NCBI GenBank assembly: GCA_040755395.1
Contig: JBFMAX010000015.1
Location: forward strand, 1 to 64,000
DNA length: 64,000 nucleotides
Direction: 5' to 3'
Source: Nitrospirota bacterium
Lineage (GTDB): Bacteria; Nitrospirota; Nitrospiria; Nitrospirales; Nitrospiraceae
In this document: positions 7,947 through 14,324 of the stretch, piece after piece
How positions within the stretch are numbered: position 1 is the first letter of the stretch
How the letters are laid out: each line of letters starts with the position of its first letter
Made by a program: the position numbers and the translations under genes
The notes under the pieces: model-generated
What the model was told of the DNA's origin: nothing
The model's database searches: none
What the model saw: the letters and a program-made list of their open reading frames with translations, nothing else

Positions 7947-8593
7947 GTTCGGGTCGTCTCGCATTCAACGTATGCCCGACAGGTAGTCGAGAAACGCGAG
8001 GGGGAAGACGTATGCTCGTTACAGAAGGACGCGGATCAAGAAGGCAACTGGCCCGCCAAAAGTTGATAGCCCTGCAGATGATGACGCTCAGCGGGGTGGT
8101 GCGACCCGCTGAGGTGGAGCTCCACCGCTCCGCGCGTCCCAGCCGGCTCCTCGCGCCGTCTTCTGAATCTGTGAATCCCGCCACCTTGAAGCTGACCAAT
8201 GTGTCGGAGCACGACCGGATCCGGCTCAACCGACGGTCTTCGGCGAAGGCAGTCCCCAAGAAGGCACGTTTCCGAGCCAACCCTCTCCTTCAGCTCCAGA
8301 GAATTCTTTCCGGCTTCCAATGGGAAACGGAACGGACCTGATTCTCTTCTCAGCCTGACGTCGTCGCGGGCTCTTTCCCGAAAACGCGCTCGTTCGGACA
8401 TCGAAGCCTCAGGTTGGTTCAGCCGCCCGGCATGACGTCTCCCGCTGCTCAGTGACGCCCTTGTGCGCCGCTGTTCCTCTGGGTTAAGATCGCCCGTCAT
8501 TTACAGTCCGTCCCGACATCCGACAGGAAGAAACCGACGCGGCGGCCGGACACCGAAGGACAAGGACCGGGGAACTTCCCGGCACAGCGGCGC
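7947..8593. other. Gene-poor stretch before tRNA-Ser(GCT)
   Basis: This stretch of nearly 650 bases has overlapping open frames on both strands (8012-8341 plus; 8036-8500 minus). Neither shows a recognisable domain or strong start signal. Apart from the doubtful ORF listed separately I see nothing. Confidence 0.4.
8012..8341 (+). CDS. Doubtful hypothetical protein
   Basis: A 109-aa frame from ATG at 8012 (MLVTEGRGSRRQLARQ), preceded by GAGGGGGAAGACGT, a possible ribosome-binding site. It is rich in Arg, Ser and Leu, without membrane segments or known motifs. A minus-strand frame covers the same bases, so this may be chance. Confidence 0.25.
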   Translation: MLVTEGRGSRRQLARQKLIALQMMTLSGVVRPAEVELHRSARPSRLLAPSSESVNPATLKLTNVSEHDRIRLNRRSSAKAVPKKARFRANPLLQLQRILSGFQWETERT

Positions 8594-8683
8594 GGAGAGG
8601 TGGCCGAGTGGCCGAAGGCAACGGTTTGCTAAACCGTCACAGGGCCAAAAGCTCTGTCGCGGGTTCAAATCCCGCCCTCTCCG
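8594..8683 (+). tRNA. tRNA-Ser (anticodon GCT)
   Basis: The acceptor GGAGAGG (8594-8600) pairs with CCTCTCC (8676-8682). The anticodon arm is CGGTT-TGCTAA-ACCG with anticodon GCT. There is a long variable arm and a T arm GCGGG-TTCAAAT-CCCGC. CCA is encoded at 8684-8686. This is class II, as expected for serine. Confidence 0.95.
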
Positions 8684-8926
8684 CCACACCAAGCTCGACC
8701 CGACCGGCAGCCCGTGCGATTGCCCTCGGTGACCAGATAAACACCTCCAAGTCTTCACAGGACAAGCACACTCCCTATGATTCGTCTTGAACGCTCTCAC
8801 TGTTCGACTTACACGGTCAGTTCTTGCCAGGTAGTGCAAAAACGACCGTCGTTCTGATCTGCCGGTTGATTTTTGACAACTGATCTTGTAAACAGAAAGC
8901 CCCGCCAAGCAGAATAGCGTTCACGT

Positions 8927-8999
8927 GCCGAGGTAGCTCAGTTGGTAGAGCACAGCCCTGAAAAGGCTGGTGTCGACAGTTCGATTCTGTCCCTCGGCA
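8927..8999 (+). tRNA. tRNA-Phe (anticodon GAA)
   Basis: The acceptor GCCGAGG (8927-8933) pairs with CCTCGGC (8992-8998). The D arm contains AGCTCAGTTGGTAGAGC, the anticodon loop CTGAAAA gives GAA, and the T arm is ACAG-TTCGATT-CTGT. CCA is encoded at 9000-9002. Its 3' half is copied at 13268-13313, which marks it as an integration site. Confidence 0.96.
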
Positions 9000-9003
9000 C
9001 CAC
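8958..9003 (+). repeat. Left attachment-like repeat in the 3' half of tRNA-Phe
   Basis: These 46 bases, from the anticodon loop through CCA, match 13268-13313 at 44 of 46 positions. An element inserting at a tRNA 3' end leaves such a copy on its far side. Confidence 0.75.
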
Positions 9004-9717
9004 AACCCCTTCAAAATCTTCAGAAGTCCCGCGCCAGATGCGGCGAGGCGTGAGGGGTCGCTTTTGAGCCTTTTGGGGGTCTTTCGAGAAAGTGGTTGTC
9101 CAAACGGTTGTCCAAGACGGAGCGGCTGTAAACGGTAAAACCGAGCCACTCTCGATGGCTGACTCCTCGGGGATATGGGGAGCGTTGCATTCAAGCTTTG
9201 GACACTACCTGACACGCATTTCATTACTTGAGTTTCTCAACTTTCATTTACAAAGTGGATAGACCACCAGACTCATGAGCTGCCTCTCGTTTCTCCTCTC
9301 CCCGCAAAGCTCCACATTCCTCAAGAGAATCGCGGCTCCCTGCGCGCTCCCCTGCTTCGCGAAATCCGATCTCTTTCCGCACAAGCCGACCAGTTCCGGC
9401 CTCCTGGTGAACACTCTCGAAGGGAGACGTAAGAGAGCGAGTCCCTCAAGCCACTTCCAAACGTCGGTCGACTAAAGATAGCTGCCCCGAGCAAGCCTCA
9501 CAGCACGAGAAAGCAACGCCTATGTAAACCTCTGGTTGGGGCTCGATTGCTTTCGCCAACCTTATCTTTTTGCTCCTCTTCTCCTGACGCCATCCATTTA
9601 TCGCTGTTCAGCGAGGTCATCTGGAATGTTTCGTGTTAGGGTGCGCATTGCAGATAGTTTACAATCACCATGAACCGTCCTGTAGGACCACATCGTATCA
9701 CTGAAAGGTCGTCACGA
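9004..9717. other. Left part of the island, no gene recognised
   Basis: This 714-bp stretch has short open frames only (the best is 66 codons at 9275-9475, rich in Ser and Leu, with no motif). A tandem pair of TGGTTGTCCAA-like words sits near 9090-9115. No integrase fragment could be recognised on either strand. Confidence 0.45.
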
Positions 9718-10155
9718 TGCTCGAACTTCTTATCATCTCATGTGCCTGCTCCTTAACGCCCTGCTTGCCGGGGCCGAGATCGCGTTTGTTGCGGTCAATA
9801 GACCGTTCCTCCGGGAACTCATGCGCCAAGGCCACAAAAAGGCCCCGCTTCTCCTTCAATTGAGGGAAAATCCGGAACCGAAGAGCTGTTGAGCCCAACG
9901 CTCGAGAAAAGCCTGGGGGTTGGCGAGGCGACTGCCGATACCATTGCGATCGGACTCGTGGTTCTACCGTTAACCTATTCCACCGTGGTGGTAGGGGAAC
10001 TCGTCCCGAAGTTTCTTGCACTAAGGAACTCACTCGGATTTGCCTTACGAACAGCGCCGTGGCTCTCGTTGTTCGATAAGATCTTCGGCCCGATCGTCAC
10101 CCTCTTTGAATGGTCCACCAAGCAAGTGCTGACCCTCCTCGCCTCACCCTCTTGA
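9718..10155 (+). pseudogene. Broken CNNM/DUF21-type membrane protein (CorC/HlyC family)
   Basis: Reading across frames gives the typical DUF21 start: MLELLIIS, then after a frameshift LLNALLAGAEIAFVAV and FLRELMRQGHKKAPLLLQL. A stop follows, and another frame continues SPTLEKSLGVGE and VLPLTYSTVVVGELVPKFLA, the family's hallmark segment. The region joining the first and third membrane helices is deleted. The protein stops before the CBS domains and CorC_HlyC domain found in intact members of about 430 aa. Intact relatives are membrane proteins linked to Mg/Co ion export. At least two lesions make it non-functional. Confidence 0.7.
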
Positions 10156-10243
10156 TATAGAATCCCGTCGTTTTCCGGCTGATGAACCGGTAAGATTCAG
10201 CGAGGTGGTCGCCCTCCTTCTGGCATTTGAACTGATCTGATCC

Positions 10244-11230
10244 ATGAGTGGACAAACCGACAAAACCGGCCATGACCATACCCAAGGCGTCGTCGATCCG
10301 ATCATCCTGACGACGGAACGAGGCATCGCGGCAATTAAATGGTCGACAGCCGGCTTGCTCATCACGGCTCTCTTGGAACTCGGTGTCACGGCTCTGTCCG
10401 GTAGCCAAGCGCTCCTCGCCGACTCCCTGCACAACTTCAGTGACGCCGCCACTGCTCTTCCCCTCTGGCTGGCCTTTAGTCTCAGCCGCTGGAGACCGAC
10501 TGCACGCTTCACCTATGGCTATGGCAGGCTGGAAGATTTGGCAGGGGTCAGCATTGTCGTCCTCATCGTTGTGACCGGGCTTTGGGTCGGATATGAATCA
10601 ATGAGGCATCTGGTACAGCCGGAGCAGGTCGGGCATGTGTGGGCCGTCGTTTTTGCCTCTCTGGTTGCCTACATCGGAAACGAGGCGGTGGCACGGTACC
10701 GCATCAAAACCGGTCACGAGATCGGAAGCGCGGCCCTCGTGGCTGATGGCTACCATGCCAGAACGGATGCGTTGGCCAGTCTCGCTGTGGTGCTGGCAGG
10801 CATCGGGATCTGGCTCGGGTACCCGATCGCCGATCCGATCATTGGGCTTCTGATCGCAGGCGTGATCCTGAGAACGGGATGGGATTCGGCGAAGATGGTC
10901 TTCAGTCGATTGCTTGATGGGGTGGATCCCCAGGTCGTCGAAGAAGTCATTCACGCCGCACAGCATGTGCCCGGAGTCGAGGACGTCACGGAAGTTCGAA
11001 TCAGAGGGCTCGGCCACCGGCTCCTAGCTGAGGTCAACATTGCGGTCCGGTCAGACCTCTCCGTGGAACGAGGGCATGCAATCGCGCAGGAAGTCCGACA
11101 CCAACTCCTTCATCATTTGCAGTATCTATCCAATGCGGTCATCCACGTTGATCCATTGAGTGCGTCAGGAGAAGCCCATCATCGAATCATCAACCATAAG
11201 CATGACCAACTCCCAACTCATTCCCACTAG
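10244..11230 (+). CDS. Cation diffusion facilitator (CDF) transporter
   Basis: This 328-aa inner-membrane pump exports divalent metal ions against protons. The N-terminus has HDH. Membrane segment 2 carries the metal-site signature in ADSLHNFSDAATAL, segment 5 has DGYHARTDALAS, and the C-terminal cytoplasmic ferredoxin-like domain runs from about residue 220 to 305 (VEEVIHAAQHVPGVEDVTEVRIRGLGHR). The tail is His-rich (HHRIINHKHDQLPTHSH), probably metal-binding. It resembles the FieF/MMT1 branch more than CzcD. It is the only clearly intact transporter of the island; the next gene starts 13 bases after its stop. Confidence 0.9.
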   Translation: MSGQTDKTGHDHTQGVVDPIILTTERGIAAIKWSTAGLLITALLELGVTALSGSQALLADSLHNFSDAATALPLWLAFSLSRWRPTARFTYGYGRLEDLAGVSIVVLIVVTGLWVGYESMRHLVQPEQVGHVWAVVFASLVAYIGNEAVARYRIKTGHEIGSAALVADGYHARTDALASLAVVLAGIGIWLGYPIADPIIGLLIAGVILRTGWDSAKMVFSRLLDGVDPQVVEEVIHAAQHVPGVEDVTEVRIRGLGHRLLAEVNIAVRSDLSVERGHAIAQEVRHQLLHHLQYLSNAVIHVDPLSASGEAHHRIINHKHDQLPTHSH

Positions 11231-11243
11231 GAGAGGCAGACGA

Positions 11244-11975
11244 ATGGACACCATCTCAAAGAAAGTTCTTGGAACCACACTGACACTCTTCTCCCTCGTA
11301 TCCTTGCTCGGCGCAGTCACGGGGCAATTTGGCACGCCGAGGGGGGATGAGGGTACGCGGATCTTTACGGCTACTGAACATCCTCATTACAGCGGTCAGT
11401 TCCACTTGATAGGCCAGAAGGGAACCCTTGTTGGTAGCATGGACGATCACGCGCCATGGGATCACCTCGATTACGCCGGGAAGCACTTAACCCCGGTGCA
11501 AGGGACGATTGCGATCATGGTGAACGAGGTGACGAACACCGGCCAAGTCTTAGCCGAATTCGTTGAAAGAACTGACCGGTACCGAATTGTCTTTGACCGT
11601 TTTGCGGCGAAGCAGCCGTTCCAAAACGGAGGCATTGCCACACGGGTGTATGAGCATGGCGACTCGGGCAATGGCGACCCCCTGTATCCCAAGACCTGGC
11701 TCTACCTGGCGGGTTGGGGCACAGCCACGATGTACAAGAACGATCAGGTTCTCTACAAACACTTTGACGCCCACTTCATGGTGATGGAGCGTTCGCGTGA
11801 TCCCAAGACCCATGAGATCCGATACCCGGTCAAGCGCACCTTGCCCGGTGGGGAAACCGATCCCGCCGGGATGGAAATCGACCTGTGGGTTCGCTCCAAG
11901 GAGCAGAATACCAGGAACTTTCCGCCATATGAAACCTTTGTTCATCTTTACTGGGAAGAAGTGACATGGCGATAG
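11244..11975 (+). CDS. Secreted protein of unknown function
   Basis: A 243-aa protein starting at ATG 11244, preceded by AGGAGAGGCAGACGA. The N-terminus (MDTISKKVLGTTLTLFSLVSLLGAV) is a signal peptide. The mature part is polar with many Asp, His and Trp residues (HPHYSGQFHLIGQKG, MDDHAPWDHLDYAGKH, YETFVHLYWEEVTWR) and no Cys. I recognise no family. It lies directly downstream of the CDF gene and upstream of another secreted protein, so co-transcription is likely. Periplasmic or outer-surface location is inferred. Confidence 0.65.
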   Translation: MDTISKKVLGTTLTLFSLVSLLGAVTGQFGTPRGDEGTRIFTATEHPHYSGQFHLIGQKGTLVGSMDDHAPWDHLDYAGKHLTPVQGTIAIMVNEVTNTGQVLAEFVERTDRYRIVFDRFAAKQPFQNGGIATRVYEHGDSGNGDPLYPKTWLYLAGWGTATMYKNDQVLYKHFDAHFMVMERSRDPKTHEIRYPVKRTLPGGETDPAGMEIDLWVRSKEQNTRNFPPYETFVHLYWEEVTWR

Positions 11976-12046
11976 CCTGACGAATGCTTCATTGCGGCAT
12001 ACGGAGAAGAAGATCCACAAAGGAACCCGATGCGCTGATCGTGGCC

Positions 12047-12733
12047 ATGCAACCATTGAAGAGCCGATACCTCGTGTCCGCATGCGTGGCGGTCTCCTTA
12101 CTCGCCGCTCTTGCAGGCGCCCTCGTGACTGGCGCCGAAACGGACTTATCGAGCCATGTCTGGAACTTTGATGCTGATCCGCCTGACGCCCTCTCGAAGG
12201 ATTTTGTAATCGGGACCCTGTTTGATGGCAGGCCCGCCGGGGATTGGAAGGTACTGCCAACCGAGCGCGCCCTCAGCCGGCCTCACGTGCTGGCGCAGAT
12301 GATGGGAAAGGGAGCAGAACACGCCTACAAGGTGGTCTTGATTAACGGAACGACCTCTGCCGATTTGGAACTAGAAGTCTCCCTGCTGCCGGTGGAAGGC
12401 AAAGCGGACATGGGTGGGGGTCTCATCTGGCGTGCGGCGGATGATCGCAATTACTATCTGACCAGAGCCAATCCCTTGGAGCAGAATATCCGGATTTATC
12501 GCGTGGTGAAAGGCGTACGGCAGATGCTCAAGAATGTTGACCAGATCATTGACGTCCGAAGGTGGCACAAACTCACAGTCAGGATGGGCGGATGCCGGGT
12601 ACAAGTCTTCTTTGACGAACAGCCGGTGTTTGACCTCTGCGATGAAACCTTCAAGGAAGGGCGTGTCGGCCTCTGGACGAAATCCGATGCGGTGACTTAT
12701 TTTGACAATCTCACGCTTCGGATCGCGCGATAA
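12047..12733 (+). CDS. Secreted protein with laminin-G/DUF1080-like domain
   Basis: A 228-aa protein beginning MQPLKSRYLVSACVAVSLLAALAG, a signal peptide. The body reads like the concanavalin-type domain found in sugar-binding or family 3-keto-disaccharide hydrolase proteins: MGGGLIWRAADDRNYYLTRANP, RRWHKLTVRMGGCRVQVFFD, then EGRVGLWTKSDAVTYFDNLT at the C-terminus. No catalytic residues can be assigned. A longer frame to 11984 exists but lacks the signal peptide at its start. It is the last intact gene of the island. Confidence 0.7.
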   Translation: MQPLKSRYLVSACVAVSLLAALAGALVTGAETDLSSHVWNFDADPPDALSKDFVIGTLFDGRPAGDWKVLPTERALSRPHVLAQMMGKGAEHAYKVVLINGTTSADLELEVSLLPVEGKADMGGGLIWRAADDRNYYLTRANPLEQNIRIYRVVKGVRQMLKNVDQIIDVRRWHKLTVRMGGCRVQVFFDEQPVFDLCDETFKEGRVGLWTKSDAVTYFDNLTLRIAR

Positions 12734-12766
12734 ACAGGCGGGGCAGGCAGACGTGGCAAAAGGTCT

Positions 12767-13104
12767 ATGAGAAAGGAGCCAAGCATATGTAGTGCTCGAT
12801 GCGTCATGGGATACGTCACGGCCTTCTTGGCACTGCCGGGAATTGCAGCTTGTGCGATGTTTGCTGGAATCCCGGACCTCGATACTCCCGATGGACAGCT
12901 CTATGCACGCCGTTGTGGGGGATGCCACGGAACACCCGCGCAGGAGGTCATGGGGTGCCGGACCCACGGTTACGGACCATGGCGGAATGGCTAGAACTCC
13001 TGCCCAAGATGGAAAGGTTGATTCGCGAGAGAGGCCGTGCGCCACTGACAGACTCGGAACGTGAGACCATCGTGCGGCACCTGAGCCTTCACGCCAAGTC
13101 CTAG
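12767..13104 (+). pseudogene. Frameshifted single-haem cytochrome c
   Basis: The first frame gives an N-terminal hydrophobic segment (VTAFLALPGIAACAMF) and the haem site YARRCGGCHGTPAQE, then runs to a stop at 12994. The other frame continues in register with the family, VPDPRLRTMAEWLELLPKM and LTDSERETIVRHLSLHAKS, to 13104. A one-base change near 12945-12955 (around GTCATGGGGTGCC) separates the two halves. It would have been an exported c-type cytochrome of about 110 aa. It is either a pseudogene or a sequencing error in a G-run. Confidence 0.65.
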
Positions 13105-13267
13105 CGGCACTGCAGGCCGAGGAACCGCTCGAATCAGACTGATTCGGCTTCGAATTTTCCTGACTAAGATTTGCCCACGAGTGACGGGTTGTCCATTTGG
13201 TGGTCTAAGGCGAAGCGGCCTGATAACCTGTACGCCCTTTCGCTGACTTAGATGGAATGCCCTGCCT

Positions 13268-13313
13268 CTGAAAAGGCTGGAGTCGACAGTTCGATTCTGT
13301 CCCTCGACACCAC
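13268..13313 (+). repeat. Right attachment-like repeat, partial copy of tRNA-Phe
   Basis: This copy matches 8958-9003 with two changes (T to A, and G to A within CCTCGGC). The upstream half, TTAGATGGAATGCCCTGCCT, no longer pairs as a tRNA 5' half, so this is not a working tRNA. Confidence 0.75.
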
Positions 13314-13402
13314 TCTCGCGCAAAGCATACGGGCGTTAGGCGCGAGGGGCTCCATGCTGGCCGTATCTGTCCCCCACCTCTTACGCCTTGCTCCTCACCC
13401 TT

Positions 13403-14206
13403 TTATGAGCTCTTTGGCAGGCCGCTGAAATAGAATACCGCGATGGCGACGGACGCGGCGACGTTGAGGGAATCGACGCCGCGATGGAGCGGAATGTAAA
13501 AGCGGATGGCGGCCTGCTTGAGCGTCGCCTCGGATAATCCGCGGCTTTCATTTCCCACCGCCAGCACTGCGCGCCGGGGCAATGCGCGAATCTCCCGAAT
13601 GGCCCTCGCGTGCCAATCGTGCGGCTCGGCGGCCAGCAAGGCGCAGCCGTGATCAAGAAACCAGGACGGATCGTTCCGGCGGAAAATCGGCAGTTGCAGC
13701 AGGGTACCGGTGGTGGTGCGAACGACTTTGGGATTGAACGGATCGGCTGAATCGGAGGTGAGCCAGACGGCGCTCAGGCCCATGGCCGCCGCCGTGCGAA
13801 TGATCGCGCCGACGTTGGCCGGGTCCTGCAGTCGTTCGCCGAAAAGACCCAACACGCGCGGTCTGGCCAGGACCGCCTCTTCATCCCACTCCGGCTTTCG
13901 GACCACCGCCAGAATCCCTTGGGCGTGTTCCACATCGGAGAGTTTCCCGAACGCCGTCTCGCGGCAGACATATCGCGGCACCGCATGGCGTTCCAGCACC
14001 CGCTTGAGGGTCGGCCGTTCCTTGCTCAGAAACGCCGGCGTGACGACCAGCGCTTTGACGGCCGGCGCGCGCGAGCGAAGCGCCTCGAGCACCGGCTTGA
14101 CGCCTTCAAGGACGAAGGCCTGCTCGGCATCACGGACCTGCTTATGATGAAGCAGATCGCGGATGAGAGAACCTGTCGCCGCGGGCAAGGAAGGAAGGTT
14201 GCGCAT
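13403..14206 (-). CDS. TrmH/SpoU-family RNA 2'-O-methyltransferase
   Basis: A 267-aa protein with an N-terminal substrate-binding domain (KQVRDAEQAFVLEGVKPVLEAL) and a C-terminal SPOUT knot. The knot carries the family motifs LGLFGERLQDPANVGAIIRTAAAMG (motif 1, near residue 125), VLAVGNESRGLSE (motif 2, near 215) and IPLHRGVDSLNVAASVAIAVFYF (motif 3). It methylates a ribose in 23S rRNA or tRNA; the exact target is not visible. Met at 14206 is chosen because residues upstream are not family-like, although the frame opens at 14323. A coiled-coil gene lies 118 bases upstream in the same direction. Confidence 0.9.
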   Translation of the reverse strand: MRNLPSLPAATGSLIRDLLHHKQVRDAEQAFVLEGVKPVLEALRSRAPAVKALVVTPAFLSKERPTLKRVLERHAVPRYVCRETAFGKLSDVEHAQGILAVVRKPEWDEEAVLARPRVLGLFGERLQDPANVGAIIRTAAAMGLSAVWLTSDSADPFNPKVVRTTTGTLLQLPIFRRNDPSWFLDHGCALLAAEPHDWHARAIREIRALPRRAVLAVGNESRGLSEATLKQAAIRFYIPLHRGVDSLNVAASVAIAVFYFSGLPKSS

Positions 14207-14324
14207 GCCATGCCTGTCCGGTTCACCGCGGGTATATCCGCGCGTTCCGGACACACCGCCGCCCTTCACCTCTTCGGCGCTTGGGTCTGCGCAGGGAGAA
14301 GGAGCGTGGGAAGGAGCGCGCAAG

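Follow-up and report, generated by a model that had tools for sequence, protein, structure and literature searches.

We found that positions 8958-13313 of a 64,000-nucleotide stretch of DNA from a Nitrospirota bacterium of the family Nitrospiraceae (GCA_040755395.1, contig JBFMAX010000015.1, positions 1 to 64,000; hereafter the window) are very probably a deletion derivative of a tyrosine-integrase element whose insertion target is the tRNA-Phe anticodon loop. The window comes from a 4.11-Mb genome (G000), in which it is contig C15, and it was compared with 175 Nitrospiraceae genomes; all genome-wide statements below rest on sequence searches of this set. The region was chosen because an original prediction, made from the window alone, had described it as a tRNA-Phe island with attachment-like repeats at both ends and no integrase.

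Results

Attachment repeats and empty sites

The 3′ half of tRNA-Phe was predicted to recur at 13268 with two mismatches, and the 46-bp copy was confirmed there, with no chance match in 100 shuffles (expectation 0.00). The left copy, the core of the left attachment site (attL), is part of an intact tRNA-Phe gene, and the right copy, the core of the right attachment site (attR), is a displaced fragment; in the attR copies of relatives the identical block starts at CTGAAAAGG. The predicted lower GC content of the interior was also evident (0.560 for 9003-13267 vs 0.623 for the rest of the window), and it is below that of all 1,024 other segments of equal length in the 64 kb, whose minimum is 0.586. 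The region has the marks of an island: a regenerated tRNA at one end, a displaced 3′ fragment at the other, and a GC content that differs from that of the host. An Rfam scan of 8500-13500 reported the tRNAs and one sub-threshold antisense match, and nothing else.

Relatives with the same flanks and no island, which the original prediction had proposed to look for, were found in G016, G020, G023, G042 and G094, where the gap between tRNA-Phe and the rRNA methyltransferase gene trmH is 85-173 bp; G020 also retains the upstream tRNA-Ser. The corresponding distance in the window, from the end of the displaced core to trmH, is 90 bp. Judged by their flanks, the close tRNA-Phe/trmH pairs are empty sites, and they fix the insertion point. 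As many family members carry a second core copy kilobases away from tRNA-Phe, the site is a hotspot.

Arm-type doublets at both ends

The conserved unit near both ends of the island is the doublet GGTTGTCC-N4-GGTTGTCC, for which the chance expectation is 0.04. It is exact on the attL side and has two mismatches on the attR side. The exact doublet was found in 24 copies in 14 of the 175 genomes, while a reversed-pattern control gave 0 matches in the same genomes. Eighteen of the 24 lie at most about 135 bp from a tRNA-Phe core, and two of these are also part of an integrase 3′ end; the remaining six are in the 3′ ends of integrase genes or gene fragments. On the attL side core and doublet are separated by 91 or 100-102 bp, values about one helical turn apart, and on the attR side by 75-76 bp. 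In seven attR copies outside integrase genes the doublet is 87% identical, whereas the 60 bp beyond it are 28% identical, about the level expected by chance. From their position, spacing and conservation we infer that the doublets are arm-type integrase sites. With its core at the anticodon loop and its arms at 91 and 76 bp, the island in the window belongs to what we define here as the GGTTGTCC-doublet tRNA-Phe family.

Related words near the two ends had been suggested as possible remains of recombinase binding sites. The first word is real but is half of the doublet; the second, GAGCGGC/GAAGCGGCC, was rejected as a binding-site remnant, as it is not conserved in relatives and is probably incidental.

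These results bear on a rival explanation, in which the 3′ half of tRNA-Phe was simply duplicated around a native low-GC stretch and no integrase took part. Partial tRNA copies can in general arise in this way, but the explanation is contradicted by the arm doublets at both ends with their family-wide invariant spacing, by the integrase remnant described below and by the empty sites in relatives, and we consider it highly improbable.

Elsewhere in the family, tRNA-Phe 3′-half cores at four loci (L104, L123, L125 and L138) are flanked by an arm doublet on each side, an arrangement like that of the attachment site of a circular element (attP) or of a tandem junction between two elements. At six further loci (L078, L082-L086) we observed different tRNA-Phe islands, which have the same core and GTGGCACC-type repeats near both ends; these probably use another integrase family at the same target.

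An integrase remnant at attR

The original prediction had seen no integrase, and indeed there is no integrase open reading frame (ORF) in the island. Neither an encoded integrase nor the tyrosine integrase of L143-L149 is present beyond a remnant of 14 C-terminal codons. The match of this remnant scored 61, compared with at most 34 at all other six-frame positions of the window, and the similarity to the integrase ends upstream of about 13172-13180. The doublet-associated tyrosine recombinases are about 390-416 amino acids long and match PF00589. In G072 and G074 (L147/L148) the integrase gene terminates at attR and includes the doublet, in frame, among its last codons; the C-terminus of the G072 integrase reads ...SDGLSIWLSKAHRPTTP. 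The remnant in the window is in frame and carries the doublet at the same 76-bp spacing, which indicates that an integrase gene once occupied the attR end and that a deletion removed all but its last 14 codons.

Candidates for further integrase remnants elsewhere in the island gave chance-level matches only. No related integrase was detected in the window's own genome at E 1e-10; its five PF00589 matches were rejected as the cognate integrase, none being related to the family at this threshold.

The integrases of L142-L146 and L162, which are not at attR, carry GGTTGTCC-GCNT-GGTTGTCC (or a version with one mismatch) at their 3′ ends, where it is read in frame as GLSAWLS. These doublets may reflect either ancestry or a further binding site. 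No core-like sequence that could be an old attR was found within 260 bp behind these genes.

Integrase-less islands are common in the family. The complete genomes G044 and G063 have 47 kb and 28 kb between cores, respectively, without a related integrase. The 18.5-kb element L122 of G046 (G046:C17:574854-593490) has arm doublets at both attL and attR, and its integrase gene is reduced to a fragment containing a stop. Its cargo includes an apparent large cobalamin gene set (cbi/cob/btuB) and a TacA/TacT-like toxin-antitoxin pair.

Relatives of the left end

Downstream of the tRNA, 133 noncoding bp share 95.5% identity with an attL of G079; the first 413 bp are 85.5% identical to G048, and 172 bp are 74% identical to G022. 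These relatives represent three genera other than that of the window, and the TrmH of G079 is only 50% identical to that of the window. A near-identical attL across genera with such divergent TrmH proteins means that the element moved between genera. G079 has two complete tRNA-Phe genes, and the element with the 95.5%-identical attL is at the one that is not beside trmH (L132, L198). Near this attL G079 and G048 encode metal-type RND efflux systems with a MerR regulator and P-type cation ATPases, in keeping with the cation diffusion facilitator (CDF) gene carried in the window.

The left end of the island is composite. Positions 9255-9413 correspond, in decayed form, to a 155-bp sequence that occurs at 15 places in 10 genomes, including L211-L221 and, in the window's own genome, G000:C12:64643-64787. 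Many of the other copies start with a tRNA-Met 5′ half and end in the doublet TGGTGAACA-N2-TGGTGAACA, which in many copies lies 137 bp past the tRNA-Met anticodon loop. The segment resembles a half-site from a second element family, for which no integrase was seen in the flanks read. As G048 shares the half-site at the same place, the junction predates the split between the window and G048.

Cargo

Two cargo genes had been reported as broken, and both, a CNNM-family gene and a cytochrome c-like gene, proved to be disrupted (Table 1). Three genes between them are intact, among which no relaxase or conjugation gene, as would mark an integrative and conjugative element (ICE) or an integrative and mobilizable element, was found by Pfam. 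The named relatives of one cargo gene are Nitrospira or Nitrospirae metagenome-assembled genomes. P243, a protein without a Pfam or NCBIfam match, has homologues in 75 of the 175 genomes, and several loci pair it with a LamG-like gene (L039, L040, L046 and L096).

Table 1. Features of the tRNA-Phe island and its flanks.
Feature	Position	Strand	Basis and remarks
tRNA-Ser(GCT)	8594..8686	+	ARAGORN; conserved upstream flank, same tRNA-Ser - tRNA-Phe - trmH order in G020 (L019)
tRNA-Phe(GAA), intact, integration target	8927..9002	+	ARAGORN; Rfam 72.8 bits
attL core, tRNA-Phe 3′ half from the anticodon loop	8958..9003	+	46-bp repeat
Putative attL arm-type doublet GGTTGTCC-AAAC-GGTTGTCC, exact	9094..9113	+	91 bp past the tRNA
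Putative decayed half attachment site, second element family	9270..9413	+	degenerate tRNA-Met anticodon-loop-like core 9270-9282; single arm TGGTGAACA 9405-9413
CNNM (HlyC/CorC-like) membrane-protein gene, broken (frame changes, internal loss, truncation)	about 9700 (9719)..10155	+	PF01595 on 9889-10152; three-frame reading
CDF (heavy-metal efflux), intact	10244..11230	+	PF01545 3e-46, TIGR01297 1e-70
P243, 243-aa protein, intact	11244..11975	+	ORF; family unassigned by Pfam/NCBIfam
LamG/3-keto-disaccharide-hydrolase-like protein, intact	12047..12733	+	sub-threshold PF06439 1.8e-4
Cytochrome c-like gene, broken	12767..13104	+	heme-type motif CGGCH in one frame, C-terminus in another
Integrase 3′-end remnant, 14 codons SDGLSIWWSKAKRP, in frame	13180..13221	+	12/14 identical to the C-terminus of the L147 integrase
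Putative attR arm-type doublet GGTTGTCC-ATTT-GGTGGTCT, 2 mismatches	13187..13206	+	76 bp ahead of the 30-bp core block
attR core, displaced tRNA-Phe 3′ fragment, 2 mismatches	13268..13313	+	46-bp repeat
trmH/SpoU rRNA methyltransferase	13403..14218	-	PF00588; conserved downstream flank

The original prediction had named as its refutation the same genes at this place without the tRNA copy, and G018 alone touches on this: P243 and the LamG-like gene lie there between trmH and tRNA-Phe without a displaced core. A search for hidden cores in G018, G190, G010 and G024 gave none above noise (best 24/45). This arrangement could mean that the pair is an old resident of the interval and that the element inserted around or beside it. 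In G018, however, the pair is inverted relative to the window, and the sister species G189 has a near-empty site with about 380 bp between trmH and tRNA-Phe; moreover, P243 is located elsewhere in most of its 75 genomes, and the pair in the window lies inside the ends defined by the attachment sites. Old residence therefore seems improbable to us. Given the inverted orientation and the near-empty G189, the pair in G018 may more simply be read as a second arrival at the hotspot than as a refutation.

Discussion

The empty sites, both repeats, the arm sites at invariant spacing and the in-frame integrase remnant bear out the original description of a deleted element. We propose the following course of events. 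The intact element would have had a circular attP, made of the tRNA 3′ half flanked by two GGTTGTCC-N4-GGTTGTCC arm sites, one of them inside the last integrase codons. Crossover in the anticodon loop would have restored a complete tRNA gene at attL, leaving the former 3′ half at attR, next to trmH; such a cycle, with arms on both sides binding the integrase, would be the standard one for tRNA-targeting tyrosine integrases. A later deletion would then have taken the integrase gene up to about 13172-13180, sparing the last 14 codons and the arm site, and two cargo genes would have decayed, leaving the CDF metal-efflux gene and two intact genes of unknown role. The binding of the doublets by the integrase, the order of these events and the inability of the island to move without help are all deduced from sequence.

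Several points weigh against this account. Binding of the arms by the integrase is argued from position and conservation. With 14 codons, the remnant of the integrase is short and may have survived by chance. For G072 and G074, the relatives with the integrase at attR, the attL end was not seen. Finally, the set contains no genome related closely enough to show this island in intact form; the nearest TrmH is 58% identical.

The island had also been called trapped. This is plausible, as no cognate integrase is detectable in the genome and attR differs at two positions in the core and two in the arm, but no more than plausible, because a related incoming integrase might still use the sites. Accordingly, the island could be a living element that is excised and moved in trans when the cell gains an element with a cognate integrase. 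The attL site matches the consensus throughout, attR retains the core and one perfect doublet half, the islands of G044 and G063 sit in complete genomes without a related integrase, and the cores with two-sided arms resemble tandem junctions or attP. The mismatches at attR and the lack of a detectable cognate integrase argue against this possibility, and the decayed cargo suggests long residence; we regard it as doubtful, and favor the deletion derivative. A further, speculative idea is that the 3′ end of the integrase gene doubles as an essential arm site, so that deletions that kill the integrase would preferentially leave a working attachment site. If this unlikely scenario were true, integrase-less passengers with metal-efflux or cobalamin genes would spread between Nitrospiraceae genera by means of their relatives' integrases.

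The Nitrospira lineage includes nitrite oxidisers and comammox bacteria. For its mobile islands our analysis provides defined candidate attachment sites, consisting of a core and arm doublets at fixed spacing, and a matching integrase family. The doublet pattern can reveal integrase-less islands that are missed by searches starting from the integrase, and it allows direct tests of mobilization in trans.

Comparison with known systems

Cis-mobilizable elements (CIMEs), such as those related to ICESt1 in Streptococcus thermophilus, keep attL and attR and have lost their integration genes (PMC5704250, citing Pavlovic et al., 2004). Likewise, our island is flanked by attL and attR and has lost its integration genes, and other copies of the family appear to lie in tandem at the same target. 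The island retains both attachment sites with their arms; it contains no recombinase ORF, and none of the identified cargo is a transfer gene. Unlike CIMEs, its parent is no known ICE, and a 14-codon piece of the integrase was kept with the arm site. The classification that fits the island best is the cis-mobilizable-element type, as a deletion derivative whose attachment-site function is predicted.

The ssrA islands of Dehalococcoides, some without an integration module, have displaced RNA-gene 3′ ends and are suspected of being mobilized by relatives (PMC3146451). As there, we see an island family at one RNA gene, with and without a recombinase and with displaced 3′ ends; the Dehalococcoides islands involve a serine recombinase and tmRNA, while here they are a tyrosine recombinase and the tRNA-Phe anticodon loop. 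For the tRNA-gene islands collected in Islander, integration is catalysed by the islands' own tyrosine integrases (PMC4383910); compared with that description, our island shares the regenerated tRNA at one end and the displaced fragment at the other but has no intact integrase. Grounded prophages are described as chromosomally fixed elements that lost their mobility (PMC6379469); in contrast to these, no phage genes were seen in the island.

In the literature searched, no paper was found that combines Nitrospira, tRNA-Phe and integrative, and none of the titles and abstracts listed for Nitrospira islands showed such an element. Elements of this kind are known; new, within the literature searched, are the family with its arm sites and the overlap between an arm site and the 3′ end of the integrase gene.

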